Shown one piece after another: positions 2,800-20,678 of a DNA stretch of 64,000 bases. The stretch is taken from positions 754,729-818,728 of the forward strand of contig NC_013887.1 in NCBI RefSeq assembly GCF_000025525.1. The letters are read 5' to 3'. The stretch is from Methanocaldococcus sp. FS406-22 (GTDB lineage Archaea > AGJL01 > Methanococci > Methanococcales > Methanocaldococcaceae). Each line of letters begins with the position of its first letter. Within the stretch, counting starts at the first letter, position 1. Position numbers and translations under genes: made by a program. The notes below the pieces were generated by a model. That model saw nothing but the letters and a program-made list of their open reading frames with translations, made no database searches and had not been told where the DNA came from.

Positions 2800-3534
2800 A
2801 TGTGGTTCAAAAAAAGGATTATAATAAAAGAGACGAATATACTCTTAAAAGTTGATGATAAGAGGTATTTTAAAAAGGCAGAGGAGATTATTTTAAAAAA
2901 TAGATTGGAGTTAGAGAGATACATATTAAAAAATCCTTATTTTTTAACTTCTTATTTTCCTGTTAGTATAGAAGAGGATGTTCCAGAAATTGTAAAGTTA
3001 ATGGCTATAGCTGGAGAGATTGCCAATGTAGGGCCTATGGCAAGTGTTGCTGGAGTTATTGCTGAGATGTTGGTTAAAAATATTGGAGCAAAAAACATCA
3101 TTGCTGAGAACGGTGGAGATATCTGCTTAAGGGCTAAAAAAGATGTTGTTGTTGGTTTATATGCTGGAAATTCAAGGATTACTGGAGAAGTTGGATTTAG
3201 ATTAAAAAAAGAGAAAATTAGAAATATTTACGGAGTTTGCACTTCCTCAGCTACTGTAGGGCATTCAGTAAGCTTTGGAGAGGCTGATGCAGTAACCGTA
3301 TTTGCAAAAAGCTCTGCCATAGCTGATGCTGCTGCAACAGCAATATGTAATTATTCAAGAGGAAGAGATGTGGAGGAGATGATAAGCAACGCATTAGAAA
3401 AGGCAGATGATATTGAAAAAATAGACGGGGTTTTTGTTGTTGTTGGGGATAAGGTAGGAATCAAAGGAAAAATCCCTGAATTAGTTAAAACAGATAAAAA
3501 AATAACCTTAGGAGAGTTGTTTGAGATGTATTAA
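2800..3534 (+). CDS. UPF0280 family protein (ApbE-like fold)
   Basis: 244 residues. Small-residue-rich stretches VGPMASVAGVIAEMLVKN (about residues 70-90), AENGGDICLR, CTSSATVGHSVSFGEADAVTVFAKS and AIADAAATAICN are the conserved blocks of the UPF0280 family. This family is distantly related to FMN transferase ApbE; no activity is established for it. The C-terminus KTDKKITLGELFEMY is well formed, so the gene is intact. The CRISPR leader begins immediately downstream. Confidence 0.8.
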   Translation: MWFKKRIIIKETNILLKVDDKRYFKKAEEIILKNRLELERYILKNPYFLTSYFPVSIEEDVPEIVKLMAIAGEIANVGPMASVAGVIAEMLVKNIGAKNIIAENGGDICLRAKKDVVVGLYAGNSRITGEVGFRLKKEKIRNIYGVCTSSATVGHSVSFGEADAVTVFAKSSAIADAAATAICNYSRGRDVEEMISNALEKADDIEKIDGVFVVVGDKVGIKGKIPELVKTDKKITLGELFEMY

Positions 3535-3976
3535 TTAGAAAAGTAAAATATTTATATGAGTTTGTTGATAATTTTGATTAAGATGTTTTTAGGTGTTTAT
3601 TATATTGTTGTGTTTGTCTCGTTGAATAGGCTTGGAATTTGATAAGGTTGTTAATTAGATAGTATTTGTTAATTTAGAGGATTTAAATTTAATTTCTAAG
3701 GGTTTGTAAGTTTGATTATTTGGAATATTTGGGTTTATTAAATTATTTAGATTTTTAAAAATTAAGATTGGATATTTAGCTAAATAAAATTTCTCTAACT
3801 AATAAGTTAAATCTTCAAATTTAGAAAGATAAGAATACTTAATTTTGTTAAAAAGGAAAGATTTAAATATTAGTGGGTTTATAAATAAAGACGGTTATTT
3901 ACCCTTAGAAAAATATACTACCAAAAAGTATAAATATAAGAAGAATAATAAAAAATTGATTGTGAATGATTGCCCT
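3535..3976 (+). promoter_or_regulatory. CRISPR leader
   Basis: A 442-bp very AT-rich stretch between the UPF0280 stop and the first repeat, with no convincing gene. A TATA-like TATAAATATA at 3929-3938 lies about 40 bp before the first repeat and is well placed for a pre-crRNA promoter. Another TATA-like site lies near 3550. The intact first repeats on this side and the decayed repeat at the far end both mark this as the leader side. Confidence 0.7.
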
Positions 3977-5252
3977 GTTAAAATCAGACCGATTCGGTAT
4001 GGAAACAAAGCTTATACAAATCGTTAAACTTCCTGATTTTCAAAGTTAAAATCAGACCGATTCGGTATGGAAACATATAAGTATTTTTGAAGATTTTCGA
4101 CTAAAACATCATATTTCGTTAAAATCAGACCGATTCGGTATGGAAACTTAGGACTCTCAGTAAAATCATCTAACAGTGTTCGTTAAAATCAGACCGATTC
4201 GGTATGGAAACTAAGTCATCATATAAGTTATTTATGTTATTAATCTCGTTGTTGTTAAAATCAGACCGATTCGGTATGGAAACCTTCCCAACTTTGAGTA
4301 TAATGCACCAACGAACAATTACAGTTAAAATCAGACCGATTCGGTATGGAAACAATAGGGCAATACCAAATCTAACAATAGCACCAGACCAGTTAAAATC
4401 AGACCGATTCGGTATGGAAACTTGATTTCATGGGGAGGGATGTATGGTATATAGAGAAGTTAAAATCAGACCGATTCGGTATGGAAACGAGTATTCTTAT
4501 TTAAAATGGGAGAGAATATGGAGGTTTGTTAAAATCAGACCGATTCGGTATGGAAACTTGAAAAACAACAAATAATAGAAGTAGAAGACAACAATGGTTA
4601 AAATCAGACCGATTCGGTATGGAAACTAAATCAGATTAAGAATAGGATTTATACGGATTACTTAGTTAAAATCAGACCGATTCGGTATGGAAACAAAATT
4701 AGTTTTTTGAATTTTTCAAAGTCTTCGGAAAAGTTAAAATCAGATCGATTCGGTATGGAAACTTATCAACTTGGTATGGTTCAACTTCGGCAAGGTCTTG
4801 TTCGGTTAAAATCAGACCGATTCGGTATGGAAACTCATGTAATTATGCAATTCATAGTTTCTAATGTAAATAAGCCGTTAAAATCAGACCGATTCGGTAT
4901 GGAAACTCAACTATTGGAGACAGCAATTCTCCCATTGAAGCTATGTTAAAATCAGACCGATTCGGTATGGAAACATCGGCAGGAGCACCTGCGTTAGCAT
5001 ATCCCTGAATTGCTTTGGTTAAAATCAGACCGATTCGGTATGGAAACTTGGATTCATTCACATCCCCCCCACCATTATTATCATTATTAAGTTAAAATCA
5101 GACCGATTCGGTATGGAAACCCGTATTCAAATCTTCCAGAATATTCTAAGTCAGTGTAGTTAAAATCAGACCGATTCGGTATGGAAACACTTTCAAGCTC
5201 CCATTTCCTTATTTTTTATATTGTTAAAATAAGATAGTTGCGGTATAGAAAC
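3977..5252 (+). CRISPR. CRISPR array, 19 repeats and 18 spacers
   Basis: Repeats are 30 bp, beginning GTTAAAATCAGACCG and ending GGTATGGAAAC, at 3977, 4045, 4118, 4182, 4254, 4324, 4392, 4459, 4528, 4597, 4665, 4733, 4805, 4877, 4945, 5018, 5091, 5159 and 5223. The repeat at 4733 has one C-to-T change. The last (5223-5252) differs at several positions and is the degenerate terminal repeat. Spacers are 34-43 bp and all different. Orientation is left to right. No cas gene lies in the window, so the array must be served in trans. The repeat 3' end resembles the GAAAC-type tags of type I/III systems in Methanocaldococcus. Confidence 0.98.
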
Positions 5253-17015: not shown

Positions 17016-17225
17016 TTATAAGGCCATTATCTCACCAACTTCCTCCAACTCTACAGGAAACCCATCCAATTGTTTGGGAATTTGTTTTTTTAGCTCATCA
17101 GTTATTTTTACAACATATACTTTTATACAAGGTTTTCCACCACATTCCCCCACTCCAACGCCTACAACTCCTTTTTTACTTAATAATTCATCTTCATACT
17201 TACTTATCACATCCTCTATTGACAT
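17016..17225 (-). CDS. 69-aa protein resembling the protease pro-region
   Basis: The sequence KKGVVGVGVGECGGKPCIKVYVV followed by IPKQLDGFPVELEEVGEI aligns by eye with residues 67-126 of the trypsin-like protease at 19638-20678 (PNVVGVATGYRVKAGKVVPELCIQVLV ... IPKEINGIRTDVIATGKI). It has no signal peptide and no protease domain. AGGTGTTGAT precedes the ATG. It may be a free pro-domain that acts as inhibitor or chaperone of the protease; this is inference from similarity and proximity. Confidence 0.65.
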   Translation of the reverse strand: MSIEDVISKYEDELLSKKGVVGVGVGECGGKPCIKVYVVKITDELKKQIPKQLDGFPVELEEVGEIMAL

Positions 17226-17262
17226 ATCAACACCTTAAGACTAAATAAAAAATAAAAATAGT

Positions 17263-17520
17263 TTATGTGGATTGCAATATTTCTTTCAGTTTTTCTAACA
17301 TATTTATGTATTCTCGAGCTTCTTTCCTTTCTTCAGCATCCATCTCATCCAAATTTTGATGAGTCTCTTCAATTTCCATAGATATTTCACAGAGAATTTG
17401 TTTTTTATCTATATTTGCTGCTTTCATAAGAACTTTATATGCTGTTTTTAGCTCTTCTATGTTAATATTCTCTCTTTTTAATGCTTCTATACCAAGTGCC
17501 AACATCACTGGTGGAATGCA
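17263..17520 (-). pseudogene. C-terminal part of a gene split by the TnpB transposon
   Basis: Native sequence resumes at CIPPVMLALGIEALKRENIN and runs to EYINMLEKLKEILQST, a helical domain rich in Glu and Lys. The open frame upstream of Cys is transposon DNA, so the ATG at 17571 is a chance start inside the transposon end. Joined to the fragment at 19002-19313, the frame reads KLLAGGG-CIPPVML without gap or shift. I do not recognise the protein. Confidence 0.75.
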
Positions 17521-19001
17521 CCGTTTCCCGTTTCCATAGCTTATCATAGCATTTAATAACTTATCATACAAATCGATAAGTTATGGAAACGGGTTGTCCT
17601 CAACCTATAGCTTCATCGGGAACACCGTTCCCTCAACTATGGTCTCATTGGACTTTTAGGGACAACGGAAAGCCCCCAAAATCTTTTTATCAAATTGAAT
17701 ACAGCTACAGCATCCCTATCAGCATAAAATCCACATTCAAAACAATACATTGGTCTCGAAGGCAGAGCCCTCTCATCGACTAATTTATACAGTTGAGATA
17801 ACCTATTTCCACAATTTGGGCATAATACCGAAGTATAGGCAGGATTTACCTCAACAACTTTAACTCCGAATTCTAAGCATTTATTTTTTAAATAACCTAA
17901 GAATTTTTTAGCAGATATGTTATGCAATTTATGTTTTAGTTTTTTAAATGATTTTTTAGTAATATTTTGGTTAAAATAGGGGGATAAGCCCTCGATAATT
18001 AAAATTGCATTTTTATCTCTAAGTTCTTTAGCTATTTTATTAGCCAACTTCTTTAACTTGTCCTCTCTAATATTTTTTAATCTCCTACCGAATTTTTTAA
18101 GTAAAACAAAACCTTTCCTCTTTAACGGTTTATCCTGCCTATGAATTCCTTTAAATGAGAATTTTTCTTGAATGTTAGCCATTATATTAGAGTATTTTTC
18201 GGTTAATTTCCCTAAATAAGTTTTTATCATCTTTATATTTTCGAAGTTACCATAAGTTATATTATCTAAGTTAAAATCTAATGCATAAACTTCTTTAAAA
18301 TTGTCATTAATTGTTATTTTATTCTCTAATGGAATTAAAACAGCTATCGTCCCCTCTTCTTTATTAAGCCTTAATTTAAAACCTGCCTTTATCTTCCAAC
18401 CCTCTTTTAGCAGTTTAAAAAATTGCTTATGTGGTTTTAGAGGAATAACAATCCTACCATTCGGAGTTGATAATCTTAAGTATAAGGTTTTCTTCCCTTC
18501 TTTATTTATAGAAAATAATCTCTCTATATTGGTTTTGAAATTTTTGTAGTTGAATAAAATATCATCCAACCATAAGGAGACATTTCTAACTTCTGGCTTT
18601 GAAGTGCATGCTTTCTTTTTCTTTTTCATGGCTATAAAGCTCTTTATTCGAGTGGATGCATCTTGAGAGGCAGTATAAATATAATGAGTTGGTAATTTTG
18701 GATATTTAATTTTTATTTCTTCATAGATTCCTTCTCTAATTTTTCTATGGCTTTTTCTCTTATTTTTTAAACCAAAATTTAGGGCAATAGATAAAACGTC
18801 TTTATACATTTCGATAATGTTTTCTATGATTTTTATTTTTGTCTTTGTTAATGGCTTGCTTTTCAATACTATAGTTTTAGTTAGTTTGATTATTTCTGAC
18901 ATGTTTATTCACTAAATAGTTTTTTTGCTGTTTATAATAATCTGTCACTATAAGTATTTATATATTACAACATGCTACAAAAACTAAGAAATGTTTCAAA
19001 C
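17521..19001 (-). mobile_element. TnpB-only IS200/IS605-family transposon
   Basis: About 1,481 bp. The ends are defined by the split gene and by comparison with the deletion derivative at 26254-26552. The left end (high coordinates) begins GTTTGAAAC and shares TTCTTAGTTTTTGTAGCAT with the derivative. The right end ends in GGGAAACGG and carries a long inverted repeat CCCGTTTCCATA.CTTATC/GATAAG.TATGGAAACGGG (17527-17592), plus hairpins GGGAAC/GTTCCC and GGTTG/CAACC. No tnpA is present. The right-end region overlapping the tnpB stop is where TnpB guide (omega) RNAs are encoded. Confidence 0.8.
17637..18902 (-). CDS. tnpB: TnpB RNA-guided endonuclease (OrfB)
   Basis: 421 residues, complete. RuvC-like motifs are intact: YALDFNLDNITYG (first Asp), AILIIEGLSPYFNQ (Glu) and FYADRDAVAVFNLIKRF (last Asp). 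The zinc ribbon CPNCG ... CFECG lies between the last two. An N-terminal helical/beta region precedes them. TnpB proteins cut DNA next to a short motif, guided by RNA from the transposon right end, which favours retention of the element. Absence of tnpA means transposition would need a transposase in trans. Confidence 0.93.
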   Translation of the reverse strand: MSEIIKLTKTIVLKSKPLTKTKIKIIENIIEMYKDVLSIALNFGLKNKRKSHRKIREGIYEEIKIKYPKLPTHYIYTASQDASTRIKSFIAMKKKKKACTSKPEVRNVSLWLDDILFNYKNFKTNIERLFSINKEGKKTLYLRLSTPNGRIVIPLKPHKQFFKLLKEGWKIKAGFKLRLNKEEGTIAVLIPLENKITINDNFKEVYALDFNLDNITYGNFENIKMIKTYLGKLTEKYSNIMANIQEKFSFKGIHRQDKPLKRKGFVLLKKFGRRLKNIREDKLKKLANKIAKELRDKNAILIIEGLSPYFNQNITKKSFKKLKHKLHNISAKKFLGYLKNKCLEFGVKVVEVNPAYTSVLCPNCGNRLSQLYKLVDERALPSRPMYCFECGFYADRDAVAVFNLIKRFWGLSVVPKSPMRP

Positions 19002-19313
19002 CCCTCCCCCAGCAAGTAGTTTAAATTTAACTCTCTTTTCTTCAATTTCTTCTACATGTTCGTGAGCCTCTTTTTCTACAAAATTAGGCAGTATTAAATT
19101 TATGCAGGCAGAATCTTCACATCTAACGATAACTATGGCCCTATCACTGTATATATTGCCTCCACGCATTCCTGCCCTTACAATGTAGCATCCAGGAGGA
19201 AGCTCTACCTCTGCATGGCCGTCTTTTATAACCCAACCTGTAAATACCTCCCCCCAGGCAGTTATATATATGTAAATGCCCAGTTCGTTTAATAACTCTA
19301 CAATTTTTATCTC
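19002..19313 (-). pseudogene. N-terminal part of the transposon-split gene
   Basis: The minus strand is open for 104 codons from a TAA at 19316-19314, reading EIKIVELLNELGIYIYITAWGEVF... through LPPGCYIVRAGMRGGNIYSDRAIVIVRC to VKFKLLAGGG. It meets a stop 1-2 codons into the transposon. The pattern of short strands suggests a beta-sandwich. No good start codon is seen, so the 5' end may also be damaged, possibly by a frameshift near ATGGGTAAGAG (19325). Function is unknown. Its neighbours suggest a link to the protease. Confidence 0.65.
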
Positions 19314-19378
19314 TTACCCATATTGAGTTTTGCCTTTCTCGAAACTGTTTAGTTTTTTGTGAGTATTCGTGAGCAAGC

Positions 19379-19600
19379 TTTATATACTGTAATACTCATA
19401 CGAGTATTTTTGAAGATGACTATCCTCCCGATGAAGTCGATGAGCTAGGCGAGGTGGAGGGAGATAGGATTCCAGTGAGCGTTCGGGGAACTCGTCCTCT
19501 ATGGGCGGGGTAACCCGGGCACTCACTGTCGATAGGGGGATGAAATAGTATGTGTGCTCACAAAAGTACACATGCTATGAATCCCTTTCCCATAATTTCC
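19379..19600 (+). ncRNA. Structured RNA candidate between protease and split gene
   Basis: A GC-rich block in an AT-rich genome with TTTATATA at 19379-19386 placed to start transcription near 19405. Helices: CTAT(C)CTCCC (about 19422-19431) with GGGAGATAG (19459-19467); CAGTGAG (19473-19479) with CTCACTG (19522-19528), enclosing GTTC/GAAC and GGG/CCC hairpins; GGGAT (19537-19541) with ATCCC (19581-19585), enclosing ATAG.ATGTGT (19545-19555) and ACACAT.CTAT (19568-19578). No conserved RNase P, SRP or tRNA motif is seen. The minus strand carries TATATAAA for the split gene. Confidence 0.6.
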
Positions 19601-19637
19601 CCAATTTTTGTTATTAAAAAGATTTAACTCATATGAT

Positions 19638-20678
19638 TTAATAATACTTTTGAGTAGGCTCTAATTCAACTTCCAACGCCATTAAAACATTGTATATGTT
19701 ATTATGAACTGTGATAACTGGAGAACCTGCAAATAGCAAGCCTACAGCTCTTTTGCTCATATCAAGTAGTAAAGAACCAGAATCTCCCCCAGCAGCCATT
19801 CTTGTTGTTATTATTTGATTTTTAAACAAATAACTCACTCCCGGTCCGTACCCCACCATTACTGTTGCGTTAGTAGATAGGATTCTCCCCGTTGTATGTT
19901 GTGTAGTTCTTCCAGTTTTTTGAACCTGTAAGCCAAGCACAGCTTCTCTAACACCAGTAGGAATTCCAATTTTTGCAATATCTGCTTTTATATACTTCAT
20001 ATCCAAAGGTTTAGCTACTGCAGCATCAACTAAATTATATCCTGAAACTAAAGGCACAAATCTCTTTAATCTTGCAATGATATCCATTCTTCCTCCACCA
20101 TCGTATCTTCCAGGTTGCAATATAGGGTCTCCAATGTTTGCATTGTTAGTATTTGCAAGAACGTGATTATTGCTCAATATTAAAAAATCATGGTCTCTTT
20201 TATCTTGAACTATGCATCCAAAAGTTCCTGCAGTTATTTTATAATGCCCTATACTACACCCTGGAAAAGCTGGTCTATATCTCCCTTTATATGTAAGGGC
20301 CTCTATTTTGCCAGTAGCAATTACATCTGTTCTGATGCCATTTATTTCTTTAGGGATAATTTCATACTGTGAAAGCTGAGTTTCTGATATTTTCTTCTCA
20401 ACCAATACCTGTATGCACAGTTCTGGAACAACCTTTCCAGCTTTAACTCTGTATCCAGTAGCTACCCCTACAACATTTGGATACTCGAGGATTTCTTCAT
20501 CTACTTCTTCACGAATCTCTTCAATTTTAGCAATTTTTTCTATTTCACTTTCCTCTAATTCAGGTTCTTCAGGGAGTTCTCTTGAAGCTTTTTCTTTAAA
20601 AAAAGTTTCAAATTCTACTGCAATTTTCTTTGCTTCTTCTGTTAATTCAAAAAATTCTTCTTTAAGCTTTTTTATCAC
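19638..20678 (-). CDS. Trypsin-like (S1 fold) serine protease with pro-region
   Basis: 346 residues. Residues 1-60 are a charged, probably coiled-coil segment without signal peptide. Residues 62-126 form a domain shared with the 69-aa neighbour at 17016-17225. The protease domain follows from about residue 140: LSNNHVLA (His172), GYNLVDAAVAKP (Asp218) and AAGGDSGSLLLD (Ser300) supply a plausible catalytic triad and oxyanion motif. It is likely cytoplasmic. Substrates are unknown; the compact island with a pro-domain-like protein suggests a regulated protease module. GGGTGAGAGT precedes the ATG. Confidence 0.85.
   Translation of the reverse strand: MIKKLKEEFFELTEEAKKIAVEFETFFKEKASRELPEEPELEESEIEKIAKIEEIREEVDEEILEYPNVVGVATGYRVKAGKVVPELCIQVLVEKKISETQLSQYEIIPKEINGIRTDVIATGKIEALTYKGRYRPAFPGCSIGHYKITAGTFGCIVQDKRDHDFLILSNNHVLANTNNANIGDPILQPGRYDGGGRMDIIARLKRFVPLVSGYNLVDAAVAKPLDMKYIKADIAKIGIPTGVREAVLGLQVQKTGRTTQHTTGRILSTNATVMVGYGPGVSYLFKNQIITTRMAAGGDSGSLLLDMSKRAVGLLFAGSPVITVHNNIYNVLMALEVELEPTQKYY

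Follow-up and report, generated by a model that had tools for sequence, protein, structure and literature searches.

Proteases of the NAL1-like kind are common in bacteria and are also found on viral contigs and in plants; their described representatives (rice NARROW LEAF 1, the Pfam families PF25608 NAL1_N and PF25819 Nal1_C, and PHROG_20754) have a common domain order and catalytic triad. The rice enzyme, NAL1, is oligomeric and acts on a specific corepressor, and in plants NAL1 is a crop-yield gene. Subtilases offer a second point of comparison: small stand-alone proteins that resemble propeptides inhibit them, as in yeast proteinase B inhibitor 2 and Pleurotus POIA1. In Plasmodium, the stand-alone propeptide-like protein SUB1-ProM is encoded adjacent to subtilase genes and inhibits its cognate protease (PMC6993865). 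Here we describe a locus at positions 17016-20678 of a 64,000-nucleotide stretch of the Methanocaldococcus sp. FS406-22 genome (contig NC_013887.1, positions 754,729 to 818,728; the whole stretch is called the window below). This locus encodes a predicted NAL1-like protease together with a free-standing relative of the protease’s own N-terminal domain, a pair that we also find in many bacteria.

The genome comprises 1.773 Mb in two contigs. Read in the direction of minus-strand transcription, the locus consists of the protease gene, the 5′ fragment of a third gene, a TnpB insertion, the 3′ fragment of that gene, and the gene for a 69-aa protein. The protease (19638-20678, minus strand) is 346 aa long with a GTG start. 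It matches Pfam NAL1_N (E = 1e-5; residues 60-114), Trypsin_2 (2.5e-4; residues 161-314) and Nal1_C (0.0022), each slightly under the curated cut-off, and PHROG_20754, annotated ‘protease’, matches residues 51-345 at 1.8e-80. A sequence search of the PDB with the protease returned streptogrisin-type proteases and rice NARROW LEAF 1. To these matches we added a search across 84,980 species genomes: 80 loci among the matches listed of 581 relatives, six plasmid loci and the window make up a set of 87 loci chosen by the protease, referred to below as the listed set. When the 87 proteases are aligned, H172, D218, G298, D299 and S300 are invariant, so that the first-pass annotation was right to call this a trypsin-like protease with the triad His172/Asp218/Ser300. 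The protein carries the GDSG motif and the His-Asp-Ser triad, and its NAL1_N domain precedes its trypsin-like domain, as in NAL1-like proteases. We conclude that it is a NAL1-like trypsin-fold serine protease, as predicted from these motifs and matches. It differs from the NAL1-like library entries in being ~340 aa long and prokaryotic, in its sub-cut-off Pfam scores, and in its linked free N-domain, which those entries do not mention. A ‘putative serine protease’ of the Aeropyrum coil-shaped virus, a spiravirus (L103, positions 2938-3918), belongs to the same family with 32% identity, and has no free domain.

The 69-aa protein is encoded at 17016-17225 on the minus strand. BLAST aligns it with protease residues 64-128, a match that is weak alone (E = 0.008). 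When the window is left out, a profile made from protease N-domains recovers the 69-aa protein at E = 5.6e-11 (for a database size of 2000); one made from bacterial free domains, again leaving out the window, recovers both the 69-aa protein (3e-23) and the protease (1.6e-17). The N-terminal end of the PHROG protease family gives a match too (2.2e-5), and relatives of the 69-aa protein adjoin proteases in 38 other loci. NAL1_N is the only Pfam family found in 30 such free proteins, 10 of which match it; an hmmsearch of the free domain against PDB sequences returned no match. The predicted fold is helix-strand-strand-helix-strand, with a predicted local distance difference test score (pLDDT) of 87. 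By these profile comparisons the 69-aa protein is a true relative of the protease’s N-terminal NAL1_N-like domain, which the Pfam match and the free-domain alignment together place at about residues 60-128 (20295-20501, minus strand), and this confirms the earlier proposal that an internal domain of the protease recurs as a separate protein. The C-terminal end of the free proteins coincides exactly with the last motif of the domain in 19 of 39 and falls within two residues of it in 27, which fits the picture of a cleaved pro-domain or propeptide-like protein.

A free domain lies near the protease in 39 of the 87 listed loci, which span at least seven bacterial phyla (Pseudomonadota, Myxococcota, Thermodesulfobacteriota, Chloroflexota, Actinomycetota, Bacteroidota, Spirochaetota and others). 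The free copy is on the same strand as the protease and downstream of it in 30 of the 39, at a distance of at most 30 nt in 16 of these, and the two genes overlap by exactly 4 nt in nine loci, as genes of an operon may do. For the reverse test we took 24 whole genomes selected by their protease; each of the 17 free copies in them has a protease no more than ~2.2 kb away on its contig. We also searched 666 genomes, drawn evenly and irrespective of the free copy, with the free-domain profile (345 from the phylum of G048 and 321 from the class of G041), accepting as a free copy any match in an open frame of at most 262 aa and counting by hand from the listed places. This search found 31 free copies: 24 adjoin a protease (weaker cases were read individually), five cannot be assessed because they sit at contig ends or on a short contig, and two, in G080 and G361, are apparent orphans. 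Among the assessable copies, the proportion beside a protease is thus 24 of 26. It is common for a protease to lack a free copy, as about half of those in the listed loci do, and on IMG/VR viral contigs some 70 relatives of the protease are practically without one. Free copies nearly always occur with a protease and proteases often occur alone, an asymmetry expected of an accessory. A tblastn search for the free domain in plasmids returned nothing at E ≤ 0.1, and the profile search finds divergent free domains in the plasmid loci L014, L016 and L017, copies that tblastn missed; tblastn is therefore too weak for this family. Overall, the protease and the free copy of its N-domain form a genuine, widely conserved two-gene unit, and the two pass the check for co-occurrence in other genomes that the first-pass annotation had set for them.

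The third gene is broken. Its 5′ part (19004-19313, minus strand) and 3′ part (17263-17519, minus strand) join in frame, as 19313..19004 + 17519..17263, once the TnpB element at 17520-19003 (minus strand; tnpB at 17637-18902) is removed. The open frame of the 5′ part follows an in-frame stop at 19314-19316, and no ATG, GTG or TTG occurs between that stop and the 49th codon; together with the TnpB insertion, this defect, which the first-pass annotation had not noted, means that the gene has been disrupted twice. The ends of the element are set by its other copies in the genome, a 97% copy at C1:602354-603838 and three short derivatives, all of which have both ends in common. TnpB matches NCBIfam guided_TnpB (5.6e-28) and Cas12f1-like_TNB (9.8e-16). 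With its nuclease C-terminal domain, its multiple copies, and ends common with short non-autonomous derivatives, the insertion resembles other IS200/IS605 TnpB-only elements; nothing about it is unusual, and it merely accounts for the split gene. The three derivatives (with the full copy: L002, L004, L005 and L006) keep both ends and lack most of tnpB, as non-autonomous relatives do.

Neither piece of the third gene, searched separately, has a convincing relative in 36 Methanococci genomes, and the same holds for the N-terminal part in 247 genomes (phylum of G045), plasmids and viral contigs, and for both pieces against all open reading frames (ORFs) of the protease loci, the bacterial middle genes included. 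We dismissed weak matches in L102 and L104 as lying in the wrong frame or in unrelated dehydrogenase sequence, and took an LLAGGG stretch common to the third gene and bacterial middle proteins as chance, there being no other similarity. In bacteria, a ~300-aa family adjoins the protease in 14 listed loci, and the free domain then follows in 10. This family (L024 3302-4219, L034 7972-8883 and relatives) occurs in Gammaproteobacteria, Myxococcota and Thermodesulfobacteriota, and it fills the middle slot in the bacteria closest to the archaeal protease. Its predicted structure has two long N-terminal helices and a jelly-roll-like beta-sandwich (pLDDT 81); a fold search returned jelly-roll matches with low template modelling score (TM-score) only. 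In one locus the middle slot holds a DUF6623 protein, a family for which we found no description in the open-licence PubMed Central (PMC) literature, and in most other lineages and most protease-free-domain pairs there is no middle gene. The order of protease, other gene and free domain is therefore recurrent, and the other gene is exchangeable. The first-pass annotation saw correctly that a transposon splits the archaeal gene; the gene’s place as a conserved member of the island does not stand, as it is broken and has no convincing relative, and the bacterial slot holds unrelated proteins or nothing. On two Rhizobium plasmids (L014 1069-4624 and L017 351-4614), the protease lies beside a radical S-adenosylmethionine (SAM) gene, a HEXXH peptide-modification gene and ‘MHDQTHSEGGG’-repeat proteins; these loci look like a peptide-modification cluster that may use the protease.

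Between the protease and the 5′ gene fragment, on the opposite (plus) strand, lies a candidate structured RNA that is rich in GC and has a TATA-like box of its own (19375-19588). Its GC content is ~50%, against roughly 25-40% in the surroundings, and its folding energy lies 4.9 standard deviations below shuffled sequences on the plus strand and 3.4 below them on the minus strand. A second copy at C1:1023776-1023989 (L003 1501-1714) is 89% identical (z = -5.0), also has a TATA-like box, and is flanked by pantoate-kinase-like and CbiX-like genes (names from reading translations), with no protease. A covariance model search of 36 Methanococci genomes found only these two copies, both in this genome. 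Rfam yielded no family for it, at a lax threshold too; searches of viral contigs, phages and plasmids found no match, and we saw no copy in the bacterial protease loci. Hgc-type RNAs are GC-rich structured RNA genes of AT-rich hyperthermophiles; the candidate resembles them in being GC-rich, strongly folded and intergenic and in having a TATA-like box, and differs in having no Rfam match and only two copies, in this genome alone. We reject the RNA as part of the protease module, because its second copy is unlinked to a protease and the model finds it in this genome only; its earlier listing as a member of the island is not borne out, and it is an independent, genome-specific element. A 32-bp repeat (19342-19373, strand not assigned) abuts the RNA candidate and has three further genomic copies (L011, L012 and L013, each at ~1501-1532), each of which begins its own longer repeat with a TATA-like stretch. 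Elsewhere in the window are a 79-aa membrane protein with an above-cut-off match to BofA (PF07441; 16244-16483, plus strand), here in an archaeon, and an array of clustered regularly interspaced short palindromic repeats (CRISPR) at 3977-5188 on the plus strand, with at least 18 repeats (RF01326).

The protease, the third gene and the 69-aa gene are all missing from the 35 other Methanococci genomes searched, 13 of them of the same genus, which argues that the locus is a decaying horizontal acquisition. The best protease relatives among the matches listed are bacterial, with up to 54% identity, and in a tree the archaeal protease falls among bacterial proteases that bear a free domain (nearest group 88/84, moderate support). 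Horizontal acquisition followed by decay would be the simplest reading of these sequence comparisons, with the direction of transfer inferred.

We propose that the locus is a horizontally acquired, partly decayed bacterial two-gene unit, in which a NAL1-like protease would be controlled or folded in trans by a free N-domain, and we give this proposal an even chance of being right. By analogy with the subtilase systems, the free domain most likely binds its cognate protease in trans as an inhibitor or folding chaperone. The free domain would be made together with the cytoplasmic protease, bind it, replace or cap its own N-domain, and either hold it inactive or aid its folding, as in the case of stand-alone propeptide-like subtilase inhibitors. 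The gene often found between the two would be a variable substrate or cargo gene occupying a slot, dead in this archaeon, and the RNA and the transposon would have come in independently. More tentatively, and with somewhat greater doubt than belief, we suggest a widespread and apparently undescribed class of prokaryotic regulators: free N-domain duplicates that would control NAL1-like proteases in trans. A third, exchangeable gene would supply the substrate, and the class would be carried horizontally even into a hyperthermophilic archaeon.

The likeness to SUB1-ProM lies in a small free protein that resembles the N-terminal domain of the protease next door and ends at the domain border; as with other stand-alone pro-domain inhibitors, the free domain is homologous to the N-terminal domain of its linked protease. 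Unlike the subtilase inhibitors, however, it accompanies a protease of the trypsin-fold clan rather than a subtilisin, it has no detectable structural match to propeptides, and inhibition here is conjectural. Several observations weigh against control in trans. A Foldseek search with the predicted fold of the free domain gave no convincing PDB match and no inhibitor or propeptide with confidence. A Thr-Asp-Val motif, near-invariant among the proteases, is replaced in the free copies, and the protease’s N-domain and the free copy may therefore not be interchangeable. The label ‘pro-region’ for the N-domain is an assumption: we found no sign of its removal by cleavage, and it may be a stable domain of the enzyme. 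Many Bacillota proteases have no free copy, and the free copy is therefore not essential to the enzyme. Because Pfam assigns the free domain to NAL1_N only and Foldseek finds no confident propeptide, we liken it to the I9 inhibitors and do not class it among them.

An unlikely alternative is that the free domain is an adaptor or oligomerization subunit that recruits substrates or builds a protease assembly, with no inhibition. The linkage data would be explained almost as well by such a subunit as by an inhibitor, a docking N-domain is plausible given that rice NAL1 is oligomeric and acts on a specific corepressor, and the free domain retains its conserved fold while losing the Thr-Asp-Val motif. 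An adaptor does not especially predict the exact ending at the domain border, however, and no conserved recruited partner accompanies the pair, since the middle slot varies. That slot is central to a less probable possibility, a maturation module in which the protease would process the product of the middle gene (the ~300-aa protein, the DUF6623 protein or repeat-rich peptides) and the small protein would keep it quiet until needed. The order of protease, middle gene and small gene in 10 loci with the ~300-aa family and one with DUF6623, the predicted helix pair and beta-sandwich of the ~300-aa protein, and the two Rhizobium plasmids are all consistent with maturation. Yet the middle gene is absent from most protease-small-gene pairs, the archaeal one shows no relation to those in bacteria, and we identified no site of cleavage.

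The first-pass annotation raised a role as a toxin or in defence, and we consider it very improbable that the protease serves as an effector, suicidal or triggered by phage, which the small protein holds in check. In formal terms, a protease with a small neighbouring protein to restrain it does resemble a toxin-antitoxin pair, and the patchy distribution and horizontal transfer would suit such a system. Against this, PADLOC recognized neither the protease nor the 69-aa protein nor the split gene, hitting TnpB only, via its Cas12f kinship, and we saw no defence genes in the loci read, which leaves the defence role unsupported. An antidote-dependent toxin should moreover not tolerate loss of its antidote, and the proteases that lack a free domain, in about half of the listed loci and especially in Bacillota, would be effectors without antidotes; relatives on viral contigs and in the Aeropyrum coil-shaped virus suit a general-purpose enzyme. 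The archaeal copy itself could be a dead relic, acquired, struck by the transposon and other insertions, and left with two intact ORFs that are now unused. The middle gene is broken twice, repeats and the RNA element are inserted between the protease and the small gene, which now lie 2.4 kb apart, and the island is not found in sister species. We nonetheless think this rather unlikely, somewhat less so than an adaptor role, as both the protease and the 69-aa ORF are intact, with a full catalytic motif and strong family-profile matches.

We found no description of the protease/free-domain pair, or of the control of prokaryotic NAL1-like proteases, in the open-licence PMC literature. The pair looks undescribed, but both this family of proteases and the idea of free regulators resembling pro-domains are already known. 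If the free domain inhibits its protease, a trypsin-fold enzyme would have a propeptide-like regulator comparable to those known for subtilases, and specific inhibitors could be had from a natural source. Such a result would also be relevant to the role of the NAL1_N domain in the plant enzyme. The conserved pairing in many unrelated bacteria suggests an overlooked, built-in control of this enzyme.

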